From the NCBI GenBank assembly GCA_020848745.1, contig JADLHM010000005.1:1-37664 (forward strand): a stretch of 37,664 nt of DNA, written 5' to 3'. Both the position numbers and the translations under genes were made by a program. This DNA is from Deltaproteobacteria bacterium (GTDB taxonomy: Bacteria; Desulfobacterota; Binatia; UTPRO1). Shown here piece by piece: positions 477-5,546 of this stretch. Numbering within the stretch: position 1 is the stretch's first letter; every line of letters starts with the position of its first letter. A model generated the notes under the pieces. The model was not told the DNA's origin, did no database searches, and saw only the letters and a list, made by a program, of their open reading frames with translations.

Positions 477-542
477 GCCCCCGTGGGGCTGGCGGTGCCG
501 GCGGCTCGTGGGACGGGACGTCGCGCGGACCGCGCGGGTCCG
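477..542. terminator. two short GC hairpins after the first gene
   Basis: Four bases after the stop at 472 lies GCCCC-CGT-GGGGC (477-489). A second hairpin, CGGACC-GCGCG-GGTCCG, lies at 526-542. Neither has a T-tract. They could end the upstream transcript, but in DNA this GC-rich short hairpins arise easily by chance. Confidence 0.3.
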
Positions 543-569
543 GGCGATGGATCTATAGGGTCGTCGCGC

Positions 570-598
570 TTGTCGGATCGCGAGCGGTCGACTACGTC
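570..598 (+). promoter_or_regulatory. putative sigma70-type promoter for the methyltransferase-oxygenase pair
   Basis: TTGTCG at 570-575, a 17-nt spacer and TACGTC at 593-598, followed by 11 nt to the ATG at 610. No Shine-Dalgarno is visible in that gap, so the mRNA would have an extremely short leader. The -10 lacks the final T. Confidence 0.4.
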
Positions 599-609
599 AG
601 GCGTGTTCG

Positions 610-1707
610 ATGCGTCGCAGGCTTCTCGATCTCATCGTCTGTCCGCGATGTCATTGCGCGCTGGATCTCCGCGCGTACACCTCGGATGGACGCGGGAGCG
701 CCGAGGAGGAGGTGCTGGACGGGCTGTTGCGATGCGGGAGTTGCTCTGGGGAGTTCCCCGTCATCGGCGGCGTCCCGCGGCTCCTGGAGCCGAGGCTGTT
801 GCGGCGCATGGCTCCGCGCTATCCCGAGTACTTTCGAGCGCATCCGCGGCTGCTCGGCGACGATGACGGCGACGAGCACGTGCTTGCCGATACCCTCGAG
901 AGCTTCACCCGGCAGCGTCTCGATCTTCCACCGCCGGGTCCGGCCCTGGTCGCGCAGTGGCATCGAAACTTCCGCCGCTACGTCGATGGCACGATCGGCG
1001 AGGGCGCGCTGCGGGGCAAGCTGGTGCTGGACGTCGGCTGCGGCTTCGGCCGCCACATGTACGTGGCGGGCCTCGAGGGCGCCGAGGTGGTCGGTGTCGA
1101 TCTGTCGGGGGGCGTCGATCGTGCGTACGCCGTGAATCGGCGGCGGACGCGTTGTCACGTCGTGCAGGCGAACGTCCTCGATCGCCCGTTTCGTGATGGC
1201 GTGTTCGACGTCGTGTGGTCGTTCGGTGTGCTGCATCACATGCCCGACCCCGCCGCGGGCTTCCGCGCGATCGTGCCGTTCGCCCGGCCGGACGGGGGCA
1301 CGGTCGTCGTCTGGGTCTACGGGTACGCCGGCATGACGTGGAGCTATCGGTTGTCGCACATGCGCGCGTTGCACCGGGTGACGCGCCGGTGGTCCGGTCC
1401 GGCGCGCGCCCGCGCGTCGACGGTGGTCGCCGCGATCCTCTCGGCGCTCTACTGGGAGCCGCTCGGGGCGATGCGGCGAGCGGGTCTCGGCGGCATCGTG
1501 CGCCGCATGCCGCTCACGGACTACATCGATCACCCGTGGCGCACCCGGATCGCTGGCGTACACGATCGGCTCTCGACGCCGATCACCCACTTCCACGACC
1601 TGCGCGAGCTGAGCGACTGGTGCCGCGCGGCCGGGCTCCAGTACATCTGCGTCAACGACACCGAGCGGCGCGGGTGGCACGCCTCCGGGCGTCGTGCCGG
1701 CGCGTGA
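610..1707 (+). CDS. Trm112-like zinc ribbon + class I SAM-dependent methyltransferase
   Basis: A 365-aa protein that probably methylates a small molecule or glycan/lipid substrate using SAM. Residues 1-60 form a Trm112-like ribbon with C11-x2-C14-x-C16 and C42-x2-C45, ending in a 'FPVIGGVPRL' stretch typical of such N-termini. The Rossmann methyltransferase follows, with motif I LDVGCGFG (about 140-147), an acidic residue closing beta2 (VVGVDLS), and a post-motif 'SFGVLHHMPDP' loop typical of Methyltransf_11/25. The C-terminal ~150 residues are a lid without a recognised domain. The ATG at 610 starts just before the ribbon. The stop overlaps the next gene's GTG (GTGA), so the two are probably co-translated. 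The substrate cannot be read from the sequence. Confidence 0.85.
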   Translation: MRRRLLDLIVCPRCHCALDLRAYTSDGRGSAEEEVLDGLLRCGSCSGEFPVIGGVPRLLEPRLLRRMAPRYPEYFRAHPRLLGDDDGDEHVLADTLESFTRQRLDLPPPGPALVAQWHRNFRRYVDGTIGEGALRGKLVLDVGCGFGRHMYVAGLEGAEVVGVDLSGGVDRAYAVNRRRTRCHVVQANVLDRPFRDGVFDVVWSFGVLHHMPDPAAGFRAIVPFARPDGGTVVVWVYGYAGMTWSYRLSHMRALHRVTRRWSGPARARASTVVAAILSALYWEPLGAMRRAGLGGIVRRMPLTDYIDHPWRTRIAGVHDRLSTPITHFHDLRELSDWCRAAGLQYICVNDTERRGWHASGRRAGA

Positions 1708-2531
1708 CGGCCACGGCGCACCTGCTCGCGGGCGTCCACCGCGCGGCCGTGACACGAGAGCCCTTCGCGCATCTCGCCCGCGGCGGAGCCGTCGACCCGG
1801 GCGTGTACGAGGCGCTGTCGGCGAGCTTTCCGCCGCTCGAGAGCTTCCTCGCGCCGCGCGAGGTCGGCGGGTCGAACCGGGCCGTGCGCAGGAATGCGGT
1901 GCGGGTTGCGGCGGATCCAGGCACGCCACCGGTCTGGCGCGAGTTCTTCGCGCACCACACCTCGGCGGACTATTGGCGCGACGTCGTGCGACTGTTCGCC
2001 GGGCACTTCCGACGCGCGTTTCCCGACCTGGAGGCGCGGATCGGCCGGCCGTACGAGCAGTGGCGCATCGCGCCGCGCGGCGCCGACCCGGACGCCGACG
2101 TGCGCCTCGACTGCCAGTTCGTCGTGAACACCCCGGTCACGGTGCGGAGCAGCGTCAAGACCGCGCACGTCGACAAGGGCGACAAGATCTTCTCGGCGCT
2201 CTTCTACGTGCCCGACCCGCGCGAGACGGGAGCCGGCGGCGACCTCGAGCTCTACGCGTGGCGCCGCGCGCCGCGGTTCGTGAAGCACCGCGTCCTCGCC
2301 CGGGACGTCGCGGTCGTGAGGACGGTGCCGTACGCCGCCAACACCTGCGTCGCGTTCGTGAACTCGCCGCGGTCCGTGCACGGCGTGACGCCGCGTGACG
2401 CCACCGACGTGCCGCGCCGCTATGTGAACCTCATCGCCGAGGTGCGGGTGCGGGCGTTCAGGCCGCAGCAGGTCGGCCGCGTGGTCCGCCGGTGGTACGG
2501 GGTCGCGACCGGCGGCGAGGACGACGCGTAG
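1704..2531 (+). CDS. 2-oxoglutarate/Fe(II)-dependent oxygenase
   Basis: A 275-aa enzyme of the 2OG-Fe(II) oxygenase (prolyl-4-hydroxylase-like, cupin fold) class, which couples oxidative decarboxylation of 2-oxoglutarate to hydroxylation of a substrate. The iron triad is visible as H155-V-D157 and H226, and R239 in 'RRYVNL' sits where the 2OG C5-carboxylate anchor is expected. The first ~90 residues carry 'VYEALSASFPPLE' and 'WREFFAHHTS' stretches often seen in this subfamily. The GTG start lies inside the methyltransferase stop (GTGA), and an earlier start would run through that gene. Pairing with a methyltransferase suggests sequential tailoring of one substrate, such as hydroxylation with O-methylation. 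That link is inference. Confidence 0.85.
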   Translation: MTATAHLLAGVHRAAVTREPFAHLARGGAVDPGVYEALSASFPPLESFLAPREVGGSNRAVRRNAVRVAADPGTPPVWREFFAHHTSADYWRDVVRLFAGHFRRAFPDLEARIGRPYEQWRIAPRGADPDADVRLDCQFVVNTPVTVRSSVKTAHVDKGDKIFSALFYVPDPRETGAGGDLELYAWRRAPRFVKHRVLARDVAVVRTVPYAANTCVAFVNSPRSVHGVTPRDATDVPRRYVNLIAEVRVRAFRPQQVGRVVRRWYGVATGGEDDA

Positions 2532-2619
2532 GGACGCGCGGCTGACGACCCGCATTCCGGTCGTTGCGAGCCCGCACTTCGCACCAGGTCCCTGGCGCGC
2601 GCTTGACGCTCTCGCGACG

Positions 2620-2648
2620 TGGACCCGGTGAGAAATGCGGGCTAGAGC
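2620..2648 (+). promoter_or_regulatory. putative promoter of the SDR operon, leaderless geometry
   Basis: TGGACC at 2620-2625, 17-nt spacer, TAGAGC at 2643-2648, then only 8 nt to the ATG at 2657. Transcription would begin at or a few bases before the start codon. The same TGGACC-N17-TAG core recurs at 15672-15700. Confidence 0.5.
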
Positions 2649-2656
2649 CTTCGGCC

Positions 2657-3436
2657 ATGATCCTTTCCGGCAAGACGGTGATCGTGACGGGCGTCGGCGC
2701 CGGGCTCGGGCGCGAATGCGTGGCCAAGGCTCTCGTCCAAGGGGCGAACGTGGTGATGGCGGCGCGGACGCAGGCGAACCTCGACGCCGCGGTCGGCGCG
2801 CTCGATCCTTCGGGGCGACGCCTCGCGGCGCGCGCCACCGACATCAACGACGCGGAGGCGTGCGCGGCGTTGGTGGGGCTCGCGCGGGAACGCTTCGGGG
2901 GCGTCGATGCGCTCGTACAGGTGGCGGCCTTCGAGCACGCGTGGGGCGGGCTCTTCGCGACCGACTTCGCGTCCTGGCGACAGGCCTTCGAGACCAACGT
3001 GATCGGAGCGTTGACGGTCGTACGGGCGGCGGCCGGCGCGATGAAGGAGCGCGGCGGCGGCTCGGTGGTCCTGATCGGGTCGCAGTCGATGTTCAAGCCG
3101 TCGCTCCCGCAGGCCGGCTATGCGGCGTCGAAGGGGGCGCTCCTCTCGGCGATGTACTACCTCGCCGACGAGCTCGGCCCCGACGCGATCCGCTGCAACA
3201 TGGTGGTGCCGTCGTGGATGTGGGGGCCGCCGGTCGAGATGTTCGTGAAGGGGCGGGCGAAGCAGCAGAAGATCACCGCGGAGGAGGCGCTTCGCGGGAT
3301 CGTCGGCGGCTTCCCGCTCAGGCGCATGACCGAGGACGGCGAGGTCGCGGACGTGGTGGCGTTTTTCGCGTCGGATCTCTCCAAGGCGGTGACCGGCCAA
3401 TACTTGCTGGTCAACGCCGGGGAGATGTCGAAATGA
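2657..3436 (+). CDS. SDR family NAD(P)-dependent oxidoreductase
   Basis: A 259-aa classical short-chain dehydrogenase/reductase. The cofactor loop TGVGAGLG is at residues 11-18, an acidic 'TDIND' stretch sits near 65, and the catalytic set is S142 (or S144) with Y155-x3-K159. 'AARTQANL' after beta2, with Arg and no acidic residue at the strand end, leans to NADP(H), but this is weak. The ATG at 2657 is chosen because it directly precedes the Rossmann fold and follows a well-placed promoter; in-frame upstream codons give an unconserved extension. Its stop overlaps the next gene (ATGA). With the downstream NAD(P)-binding enzyme it looks like a two-step oxidoreductase unit acting on an unknown hydroxy or keto compound. 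Confidence 0.88.
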   Translation: MILSGKTVIVTGVGAGLGRECVAKALVQGANVVMAARTQANLDAAVGALDPSGRRLAARATDINDAEACAALVGLARERFGGVDALVQVAAFEHAWGGLFATDFASWRQAFETNVIGALTVVRAAAGAMKERGGGSVVLIGSQSMFKPSLPQAGYAASKGALLSAMYYLADELGPDAIRCNMVVPSWMWGPPVEMFVKGRAKQQKITAEEALRGIVGGFPLRRMTEDGEVADVVAFFASDLSKAVTGQYLLVNAGEMSK

Positions 3437-4524
3437 CCACCCGTGCGGGCGCGAGCAAGAAGAAGGTCGTCGTGTGGGGGACCGGCTTCGTCGGGAAGCT
3501 CGTGATCCCGGAGATCGTGAAGCATCCGGGGTTCGAGCTTGTCGGTGTGGGCGTCAGCCACCCGGAGAAGGTCGGAAAGGACGTCGGCGCGATCTGCGGC
3601 ATCGATCCCATCGGTCTCGCGGCCACGGACGACGTCGCGCAGCTCCTCGCGACCGACCCCGACGCGCTCGTCCACTACGGACCGACCGCCGCCTACGCGC
3701 GCGACAACATCCGGCTCATCAAACAGTTCCTGCTCGCCGGCATCGACGTCTGCTCGACCGCGATGACGCCGTGGGTCTGGCCGGCGATGACGAAGAACCC
3801 GCCGCAATGGATCGCGCCGATCACCGAGGCGTGCGAACGGGGAGGGGCGTCGTGCTTCACGACCGGCATCGATCCCGGGTTCGCGAACGACCTCTTCCCG
3901 CTGACCCTCATGGGCCTCTGCGGCGAGGTCCGCGTCGTGCGCGCCCTCGAGATCCTCGACTACAGCAACTACGAAGGCGACTACGAGATCGAGATGGGGA
4001 TCGGGAAGCCGGCGGACTTCCAGGCCCTCCTCGAGAATCCCGACATCCTCGCCATGTCGTGGGGCGCGACGGTGCCGATGATCGCGCACGCCGCCGGCAT
4101 CGAGCTCGACGCGATCACCACCACCTGGGACAAGTGGGTGACGCCGAAGGCGATCACGACGGTGAAGGGCACCATCGCTCCCGGCGAGGTGGCGGCCATC
4201 CACTTCACCATCAACGGCGTGTACCGGGGGACGACCCGGATCCAGCTCGAGCACGTGAACCGGGTCGGGCAGGACGCCGCGCCCGACTGGCCGCGCGGCG
4301 GCCGGAACGACGTGTATCGGGTCGAGATCGAGGGTTCGCCGTCGATCACTCAGGAGACCGCGTTCCGCTTCACCGACGGCAGCGGGCGCGACGCTTCGAC
4401 GGCCGGCTGCCTCGCGACGGGCCTGCGCGCGCTGAACGCCGTGCCCTACGTGAACGAGCTGCCCGCGGGCTGGGTGACCGCGCTCGACCTGCCGCTCATC
4501 CCGGGGAGGGGCACGATCCGGTAG
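3433..4524 (+). CDS. dihydrodipicolinate reductase-like NAD(P)-binding protein
   Basis: A 363-aa protein with an N-terminal Rossmann motif (VVVWGTGFVGK, from about residue 12) followed by 'FELVGVGVSHPEKVGKDVG', as in DapB-like and 2,4-diaminopentanoate-dehydrogenase-like enzymes. The family shares DapB's N-terminal fold but is not DapB: the protein is about 100 residues longer and lacks the DapB substrate motif. Many homologues lie beside lipid or aromatic degradation genes. The start overlaps the SDR stop (ATGA), indicating a coupled pair. A role in reducing or oxidising an oxo or imino intermediate made by the SDR is inference. The family call is sound; the reaction is unknown. Confidence 0.75.
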   Translation: MTTRAGASKKKVVVWGTGFVGKLVIPEIVKHPGFELVGVGVSHPEKVGKDVGAICGIDPIGLAATDDVAQLLATDPDALVHYGPTAAYARDNIRLIKQFLLAGIDVCSTAMTPWVWPAMTKNPPQWIAPITEACERGGASCFTTGIDPGFANDLFPLTLMGLCGEVRVVRALEILDYSNYEGDYEIEMGIGKPADFQALLENPDILAMSWGATVPMIAHAAGIELDAITTTWDKWVTPKAITTVKGTIAPGEVAAIHFTINGVYRGTTRIQLEHVNRVGQDAAPDWPRGGRNDVYRVEIEGSPSITQETAFRFTDGSGRDASTAGCLATGLRALNAVPYVNELPAGWVTALDLPLIPGRGTIR

Positions 4525-4546
4525 CCCAGCGGGCGGAGCGCGCGAC

Positions 4547-4576
4547 TTGCTTTCGACGGCGACGCGCGTCCATGCT
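4547..4576 (+). promoter_or_regulatory. weak putative promoter of the two-component pair
   Basis: TTGCTT at 4547-4552, 18-nt spacer, CATGCT at 4571-4576, then 8 nt to the ATG at 4585. There is no Shine-Dalgarno in the gap. The -10 keeps only the A at position 2 and T at position 6, so the call rests mainly on geometry shared with better examples in the window. Confidence 0.3.
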
Positions 4577-4584
4577 GCTGGCGA

Positions 4585-4905
4585 ATGCCGACGTCCGACC
4601 AGGAGAAGCCGTCCCCGCAGCCGGGAGACGCGGCGCGATCCGAGGCGGGCGCCGGTCCGAGCCGTCCGGAGGGGAGCCTGGACGCGGACGTGCAGCGTGC
4701 GCTCGCGGCCGAGCTGCGCTGGCTGACCCACGAGATCAGCCAACCCCTGGCGGCGATCGTGAGCTACGTCCGGGGCGCGCAGATGCGCCTCGACGCCCAC
4801 AGCCTGCAGGAAGCGGATCTCGCCCACGTACTGGAAGCGATCGCGACGCAGGCGCAGCGTGCGGTCGCGATCGTCCGCGGGGCCGATCGGCAACGGGGGT
4901 CATGA
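4585..4905 (+). CDS. HisKA (DHp)-only histidine kinase fragment lacking an ATPase domain
   Basis: A 106-aa protein. Residues 1-32 are a polar, Pro/Glu-rich tail. Residues ~36-105 match the FixL/DctB-type dimerisation and phosphoacceptor hairpin: an H-box 'THEISQPLAAI' with H49, then 'YVRGAQMRL', then a second helix 'IATQAQRAVAIVRG'. The gene stops exactly where the linker to an HATPase_c domain should begin, and no N, G1, F or G2 box follows in any frame. It has no sensor domain or membrane segment, so it is cytosolic. The downstream FixJ-type gene overlaps by ATGA. It could be a phosphotransfer protein (Spo0B-like logic), a dimerisation adaptor fed by another kinase, or a decaying kinase. 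The open frame and coupling favour a functional short protein. Confidence 0.75.
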   Translation: MPTSDQEKPSPQPGDAARSEAGAGPSRPEGSLDADVQRALAAELRWLTHEISQPLAAIVSYVRGAQMRLDAHSLQEADLAHVLEAIATQAQRAVAIVRGADRQRGS

Positions 4906-5546
4906 TGAGCCGAGGAACGATTCACGTCGTCGACGACGACACCGCCGTGTTGCGCGGCCTGCGCTGGTTCTTCGAGTCCGCCGGGCTCGTCGTCGAAAGC
5001 TACGCGAACGCGGAGGACTTCGCGTCGCGCTATCAGCGGGCGACCGCGCCGGAGTGCCTGGTGCTCGATCTCTGCATGCCCGGCCTGTCGGGCCTCGCGC
5101 TGCACCGGACCTTTCACGAGCGGGGCTGGACGCTGCCGGTCATCTATCTCACCGGCCATGGCAAGGTCCCCGATGCGGTCGCCGCGTTGAAGCAGGGAGC
5201 TTTCGATTTCGTCGAGAAGCCCTGCGCCGACGATGCGATGCTGGCGCGGGTGCGGGCCGCGCTGGCGGAGGACGTCCGGCGGCGGGCGCACTCGGAGGAG
5301 ATGGCGCAGCTGGCGGCGCGGATCGCGAGCCTGACGACGCGCGAGCACCAGGTGGCGATGCGGGTGGCCGCGGGCCTACCCAACAAGCTGATCGCCGCCG
5401 AGCTCGGCATCAGTCCGCGAACCGTCGAGGTCTACCGCGCGAAGGCGATGAGCAAGACCGGCTCGCGGTCGACGGCCGAGCTGGTGCAGCTGGTGATGCG
5501 CGAGCGCGGGTTCGAGGGCACGCGCGGTACGCCGGGCTCGCCGTAG
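4902..5546 (+). CDS. FixJ/TodT-type response regulator (REC + LuxR HTH)
   Basis: A 214-aa transcription regulator. The receiver domain (about 7-125) has the acidic pocket D11-D12-D13, phosphoacceptor D56 in 'VLDLCMPG', Thr in 'YLTGH' and Lys in 'VEKPC'. A charged linker leads to a LuxR/GerE helix-turn-helix: 'LTTREHQVAMRVAAG', then 'AELGISPRTVEVYRAKAM'. This is the standard FixJ layout and length. ATG at 4902 overlaps the previous stop, and a second ATG at 4905 follows directly. It should bind DNA as a dimer when phosphorylated. The coupled partner lacks an ATPase domain, so phosphate must come from elsewhere or the regulator works unphosphorylated. Its target promoter is unknown; the nearest downstream unit is the DUF3604 gene. 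Confidence 0.9.
   Translation: MMSRGTIHVVDDDTAVLRGLRWFFESAGLVVESYANAEDFASRYQRATAPECLVLDLCMPGLSGLALHRTFHERGWTLPVIYLTGHGKVPDAVAALKQGAFDFVEKPCADDAMLARVRAALAEDVRRRAHSEEMAQLAARIASLTTREHQVAMRVAAGLPNKLIAAELGISPRTVEVYRAKAMSKTGSRSTAELVQLVMRERGFEGTRGTPGSP

Follow-up and report, generated by a model that had tools for sequence, protein, structure and literature searches.

The 106-amino-acid protein encoded directly upstream of a FixJ-type response regulator in the window (the whole stretch of 37,664 nucleotides analysed here) appears to be a natural, lineage-specific derivative of a FixL-type kinase, reduced to its phosphoacceptor (DHp) hairpin and carried by two species. As the original prediction stated, the protein ends right after the hairpin that bears H49, its stop codon overlaps the ATG of the regulator gene, and no HATPase_c domain follows. 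Our preferred reading, which we hold tentatively and with somewhat less than even confidence, is that this remnant core of a FixL/TtrS-type kinase serves mainly as a co-translated phosphatase or drain on FixJ. The features that bear on this reading are collected in Table 1.

Table 1. Features of the DHp/FixJ locus and its upstream neighbours (positions in the window)
Feature	Position	Strand	Remarks
DHp-only protein, 106 aa	4585..4905	+	Residues 1-36, variable N-terminus; residues 37-106, complete HisKA/DHp hairpin
Key DHp residues of the 106-aa protein: H49, E50, Q53, P54			Basis: sequence
Possible alternative GTG start (V36)	4690..4692	+	In frame, also in the congener; product would be a bare 71-aa DHp
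ATGA stop/start overlap of the DHp and FixJ genes	4902..4905	+	Identical in the congener (locus L035)
FixJ-type response regulator, REC + LuxR/GerE HTH, 214 aa	4902..5546	+	Pfam, NCBIfam
DapB_N / DAP_DH_C oxidoreductase	3433..4524	+	Pfam; 60 nt upstream of the DHp gene
Short-chain dehydrogenase (SDR)	2654..3436	+	Pfam; ATGA overlap with the DapB-like gene

The 106-aa protein can be placed in the HisKA/DHp group by its H-box histidine and its two-helix hairpin, which are recovered by Pfam, by alignment, and by AlphaFold2. HisKA is the sole Pfam match (E-value 2.2e-5, 24.8 bits, about 2 bits under the gathering score of 26.9), and the DHp parts of the NCBIfam TtrS and FixL models match residues 47-98 at 1.1e-8 and 1.1e-5, respectively. 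AlphaFold2 predicts helices at residues 31-70 and 76-105, with a pLDDT of 96-99 through most of their length, preceded by a poorly ordered N-terminus. The PDB structures closest to the predicted hairpin are the DHp of HK853 (several of them in complex with RR468) and the hybrid regulator LvrB, with E-values that are weak (at least 0.16), not surprisingly for a short helical hairpin.

No sensor domain (PAS or other) was detected in the 106-aa protein, in which Pfam finds HisKA alone and residues 1-36 are both poorly ordered and neutral (see below). Nor is there a HATPase_c domain on the same chain, the stop codon lying immediately 3' of the DHp, and none of the 55 matches in a PF02518 profile search of the genome falls on the contig concerned (C5, which is exactly the window). 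A programmed -1 frameshift fusing the DHp to FixJ seems unlikely, the GGGGG run being a poor slippery heptamer.

The downstream gene product qualifies as a FixJ response regulator by its REC domain with an Asp site (90.7 bits) and its LuxR/GerE HTH (59.7 bits). Read from the sequence, the phosphorylation-site residues D11/D12, D56, T84, and K106 are all present, and the REC site is intact. The protein matches the NCBIfam FixJ model NF006900 at 3e-61, but its 206.5 bits stay below the equivalog cut-off of 255, and it is therefore best described as FixJ-type rather than FixJ proper. The ATGA overlap suggests that this gene is translationally coupled to the DHp gene.

The same arrangement is found in a congener (JADYZW010000029.1, genome G001), in which the DHp ORF recurs with its end and ATGA overlap unchanged, the DHp protein being 78% identical and FixJ 83%. 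This supports the predicted coupling of a DHp-only protein to FixJ, and since the congener is an independent MAG with an identical layout, an assembly error joining two genes, or a deletion scar, can be rejected. Conservation in the sister species indicates that the DHp-only protein is probably a working part. In a third congener (G002) the flanks are joined, with window position 478 adjoining 5542; the SDR, DapB-like, DHp, and FixJ genes are therefore all absent there, and the difference may reflect either a loss in G002 or a gain in the other two. It had been stated that the idea should be abandoned if close relatives had a full kinase at this locus, with a frameshift or deletion in the window; no such kinase was found, and G002 is without the whole block.

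Three further observations concern the surroundings of the pair. The interval 479-5541, all of which is absent from G002, is an indel hot spot: about 2.2 kb of the window (486-2657, a methyltransferase and another ORF) is not in G001, which in turn carries some 470 bp more downstream of FixJ. Within the 60 nt that precede the DHp gene, CTTGCTTTCGACGG occurs at 4545-4560 and is conserved in both species, perhaps as a promoter or operator. The DapB-like/DAP_DH_C protein shows 84-87% identity to proteins of two genomes from other families (G075 and G049), and closer relatives have no match that high; acquisition of this gene by horizontal transfer is possible. The DHp-FixJ pair does not adjoin the DapB-like gene in G049; the G075 contig stops at that point.

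Comparison of the window species with its congener (Nei-Gojobori) gives a dN/dS of 0.175 for DHp codons 37-106 and of 1.03, that is, neutral, for codons 1-36; the neighbouring genes have values of 0.26 (FixJ), 0.22 (SDR), 0.17 (a DUF3604 gene), and 0.13 (DapB-like). The 22 nucleotide changes in the DHp are distributed 5/4/13 over the codon positions and cause 7 amino-acid changes, where random placement of these changes would be expected to give 14.9 (0/5000 simulations as low), and the same simulation reveals no bias against amino-acid change in the N-terminal 36 codons. Purifying selection on the DHp alone, next to neutral codons 1-36, argues that it is the protein product of the DHp codons that is retained, the N-terminus being free. 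Given that neutrality, the GTG at 4690 could be the true start of the gene. These values bear on whether the ORF is a decaying kinase remnant, or is retained just for its translational coupling to fixJ. Such an origin would suit the neutral N-terminal codons, the ATGA overlap, and the presence of the ORF in only two of three congeners, but the constraint on the DHp codons and the clean ends, with no frameshift in either species, make it quite improbable.

The origin of the protein can be approached through its homologues. The best matches to the DHp adjoin FixJ genes that are also among the top matches to the FixJ of the window (e.g., in G030, G012, and G031). In nearly all intact tandem pairs of related genomes, the DHp is separated from FixJ by 498-619 nt, the exceptions being one pair with a gap of 833 nt and one in opposite orientation; in the window and in the congener, the gap is 0. 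As 498-619 nt corresponds to the length of the catalytic (CA) domain, which in homologous kinases occupies some 150-180 aa after the DHp, a gap of 0 means that the CA segment is missing. The plain reading of these sequences is that sensor and CA were lost from an intact kinase/FixJ pair before the two species diverged.

In a class-wide search of 148 genomes, only the window ORF sits in an open frame of less than 222 aa, and among the roughly 100 DHp homologues of the class that were read, none apart from that of the congener is DHp-only, those with short extensions being cut by a contig end, broken off inside a recognisable CA, or spurious matches within a CA. When the genomes of 84,980 species were scanned with peptide patterns, a method that reaches close relatives only, the congener alone was returned as lacking a CA. 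Searches of the class, the phylum, and plasmids yielded no other DHp-only family, and a text search of the literature on DHp-only proteins found no relevant paper. The expected conservation of H49 without an ATPase across genomes is thereby seen in two congeners and not across several independent lineages, every other homologue of the class having a CA or being cut off.

Compared with 102 kinases of the class, the 106-aa protein has kept H49, E50, Q53, P54, L55, A57, R92, and A93. The base of the bundle (residues 37-48 and 99-104) departs from what is usual in the kinases (A48T, G42A/V, R101D, and, in the window species, R37Q), N52S near H49 is a further change from the consensus, and the helix-2 end "RLRxFVRK" of the class kinases is lost. 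This pattern would fit a part that still faces the regulator and is no longer joined to a sensor helix or a CA linker. Residues 43-66 of helix 1 are identical in the two species, which would also be compatible with mere binding, the DHp dimer titrating FixJ or forming mixed dimers with another kinase, with no chemistry at H49, in the manner of the pseudokinase RocA. RocA does not need its histidine, and overexpression of a truncated form devoid of the CA gives complementation (PMC7028121). However, a pure binder need not keep its phosphorylation site, and with H49, E50, Q53, and P54 all retained we consider this explanation improbable. Both it and the decay or coupling described earlier are less likely than a DHp that removes phosphate from FixJ or delivers phosphate to it.

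For the preferred reading, phosphatase or drain activity on FixJ, the steps can be outlined as follows. An ancestral FixL/TtrS-type kinase encoded upstream of a FixJ gene would have lost its sensor and catalytic domain, leaving the DHp hairpin, which would dimerise and dock on FixJ. As there is no ATP-binding part, only ATP-independent steps would be open to the protein: FixJ~P could be dephosphorylated by phosphatase activity, by back-transfer to H49 with subsequent hydrolysis, or by both. Regulation would probably be negative in sign, with FixJ kept off as long as neither acetyl phosphate nor another kinase drives it. We favour this activity because the isolated DHp of EnvZ and of NtrB is enough for response-regulator phosphatase activity and in vivo yields a constitutive phosphatase phenotype (PMC3510030), and FixL-derived DHp/CA modules are phosphatases on FixJ (PMC11164954). 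The roles originally listed for the 106-aa protein left out the response-regulator phosphatase, the activity with the best precedent for a DHp on its own (PMC3510030). Two of the listed roles, Spo0B-like transfer and a sink, are still plausible.

Several points count against a phosphatase or drain. In CrdS, the acidic residue at H+1 is required for kinase and dispensable for phosphatase activity, and the substitution N375Q at H+4 abolishes the latter (PMC3510030). Here, E50 (H+1) is kept and H+4 is Q, though Q is native at this position throughout this FixL-type family. The changes beside H49 are unusual (N to S at H+3, A to T at H-1), and the DHp-only protein is carried by two species only. 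The CA domain, moreover, normally boosts DHp phosphatase activity strongly.

Since the counterpart of E50 is dispensable for the CrdS phosphatase, its retention leaves room for a phosphotransfer role, in which H49 would be phosphorylated by another protein (the receiver of a hybrid kinase, as with Spo0B, ChpT, and PhyT, or the CA of a full-length kinase acting in trans) and the phosphate passed to FixJ as a positive input. We regard this as possible but doubtful. Both H49 and E50 are kept despite the changes at flanking positions 48 and 52, in CrdS an E at H+1 is specific to the kinase activity (PMC3510030), and PhyT offers an example of a degenerate kinase that serves as phosphotransferase from one regulator to another (PMC5898713). 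Another protein of the same genome (L133:1419-2891, minus strand; G000:C125, about 22470) has the architecture PAS-DHp-REC and no match to HATPase_c, which suggests that DHp modules lacking a CA are tolerated there. An obvious donor, on the other hand, is missing: the genome (99.5% complete) contains neither an orphan CA protein nor a close FixL-type paralogue, the next match having an E-value of 0.14.

The HATPase_c matches of the genome fall in DHp-containing proteins or in GyrB, ParE-like proteins, and MutL (as judged by HisKA, HisKA_3, and direct reading), with no orphan FixL-type CA protein among the 55. A dedicated split-kinase partner is therefore unlikely, and the suggestion of an adaptor using another kinase's ATPase is weakened in so far as it calls for a dedicated, separate ATPase; a full-length kinase may act in trans on the DHp-only protein. 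A broader proposal, that the bare DHp exchanges phosphate with its own FixJ while other kinases supply it in trans through their ATPase or receiver, so that FixJ becomes a sensorless integrator, seems to us rather unlikely. Another protein of the genome (L132:1103-2908, minus strand; G000:C46, about 71558) combines a receiver-like N-terminus, a sigma-54-type AAA domain, and HisKA in an unusual fusion with no recognisable HATPase_c.

If the protein is functional, a two-component pair can outlast the loss of both its sensor and its ATPase, and the locus would allow one to test which DHp residues serve regulator binding and phosphate handling alone. Researchers who count kinases by HATPase_c should keep in mind that DHp-only proteins are overlooked.

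Among known systems, FixL/TtrS-type kinases (including the FixL chimeras PDB 8a3u and 4gcz) resemble the 106-aa protein in DHp sequence, in the H-box HExxQPL, and in their place directly upstream of a FixJ-type regulator; the 106-aa protein differs in lacking both a sensor (PAS or other) and a HATPase_c/CA domain, and in its diverged bundle base. Spo0B and ChpT, the dimeric DHp phosphotransferases, likewise have a DHp with a phosphorylatable His and are not expected to have kinase activity. They retain a degenerate CA-like domain, whereas the 106-aa protein is without any C-terminal domain or CA remnant, and its partner is the adjacent FixJ. Both have been termed degenerated kinases (PMC5898713). 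PhyT and PhyP of Sphingomonas (PMC5898713), which have negative and transfer roles, are also kinase-derived, with an intact DHp His and a gene beside that of their regulator. Unlike the 106-aa protein, these two are membrane-bound, have a DHp of the HWE/HisKA_2 type, and possess a degenerate ATPase domain.

Rv0600c/Rv0601c of M. tuberculosis form a split kinase. In the split kinase Hik36-Hik43 (PMC7656254), phosphoacceptor and ATPase are again on separate chains, but a CA-bearing partner exists there, and a separate partner of this kind was not found in the present genome. Judged by its domain content, the 106-aa protein may function like a histidine kinase, Spo0B/ChpT, or a split kinase, but it is architecturally none of these. 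The EnvZ and NtrB fragments (PMC3510030) are alike in consisting of a DHp alone and in being of the HisKA type; they were engineered, whereas the 106-aa protein is a natural gene product and thus parallels in nature the DHp fragments with which kinase and phosphatase activity have been told apart in the laboratory.
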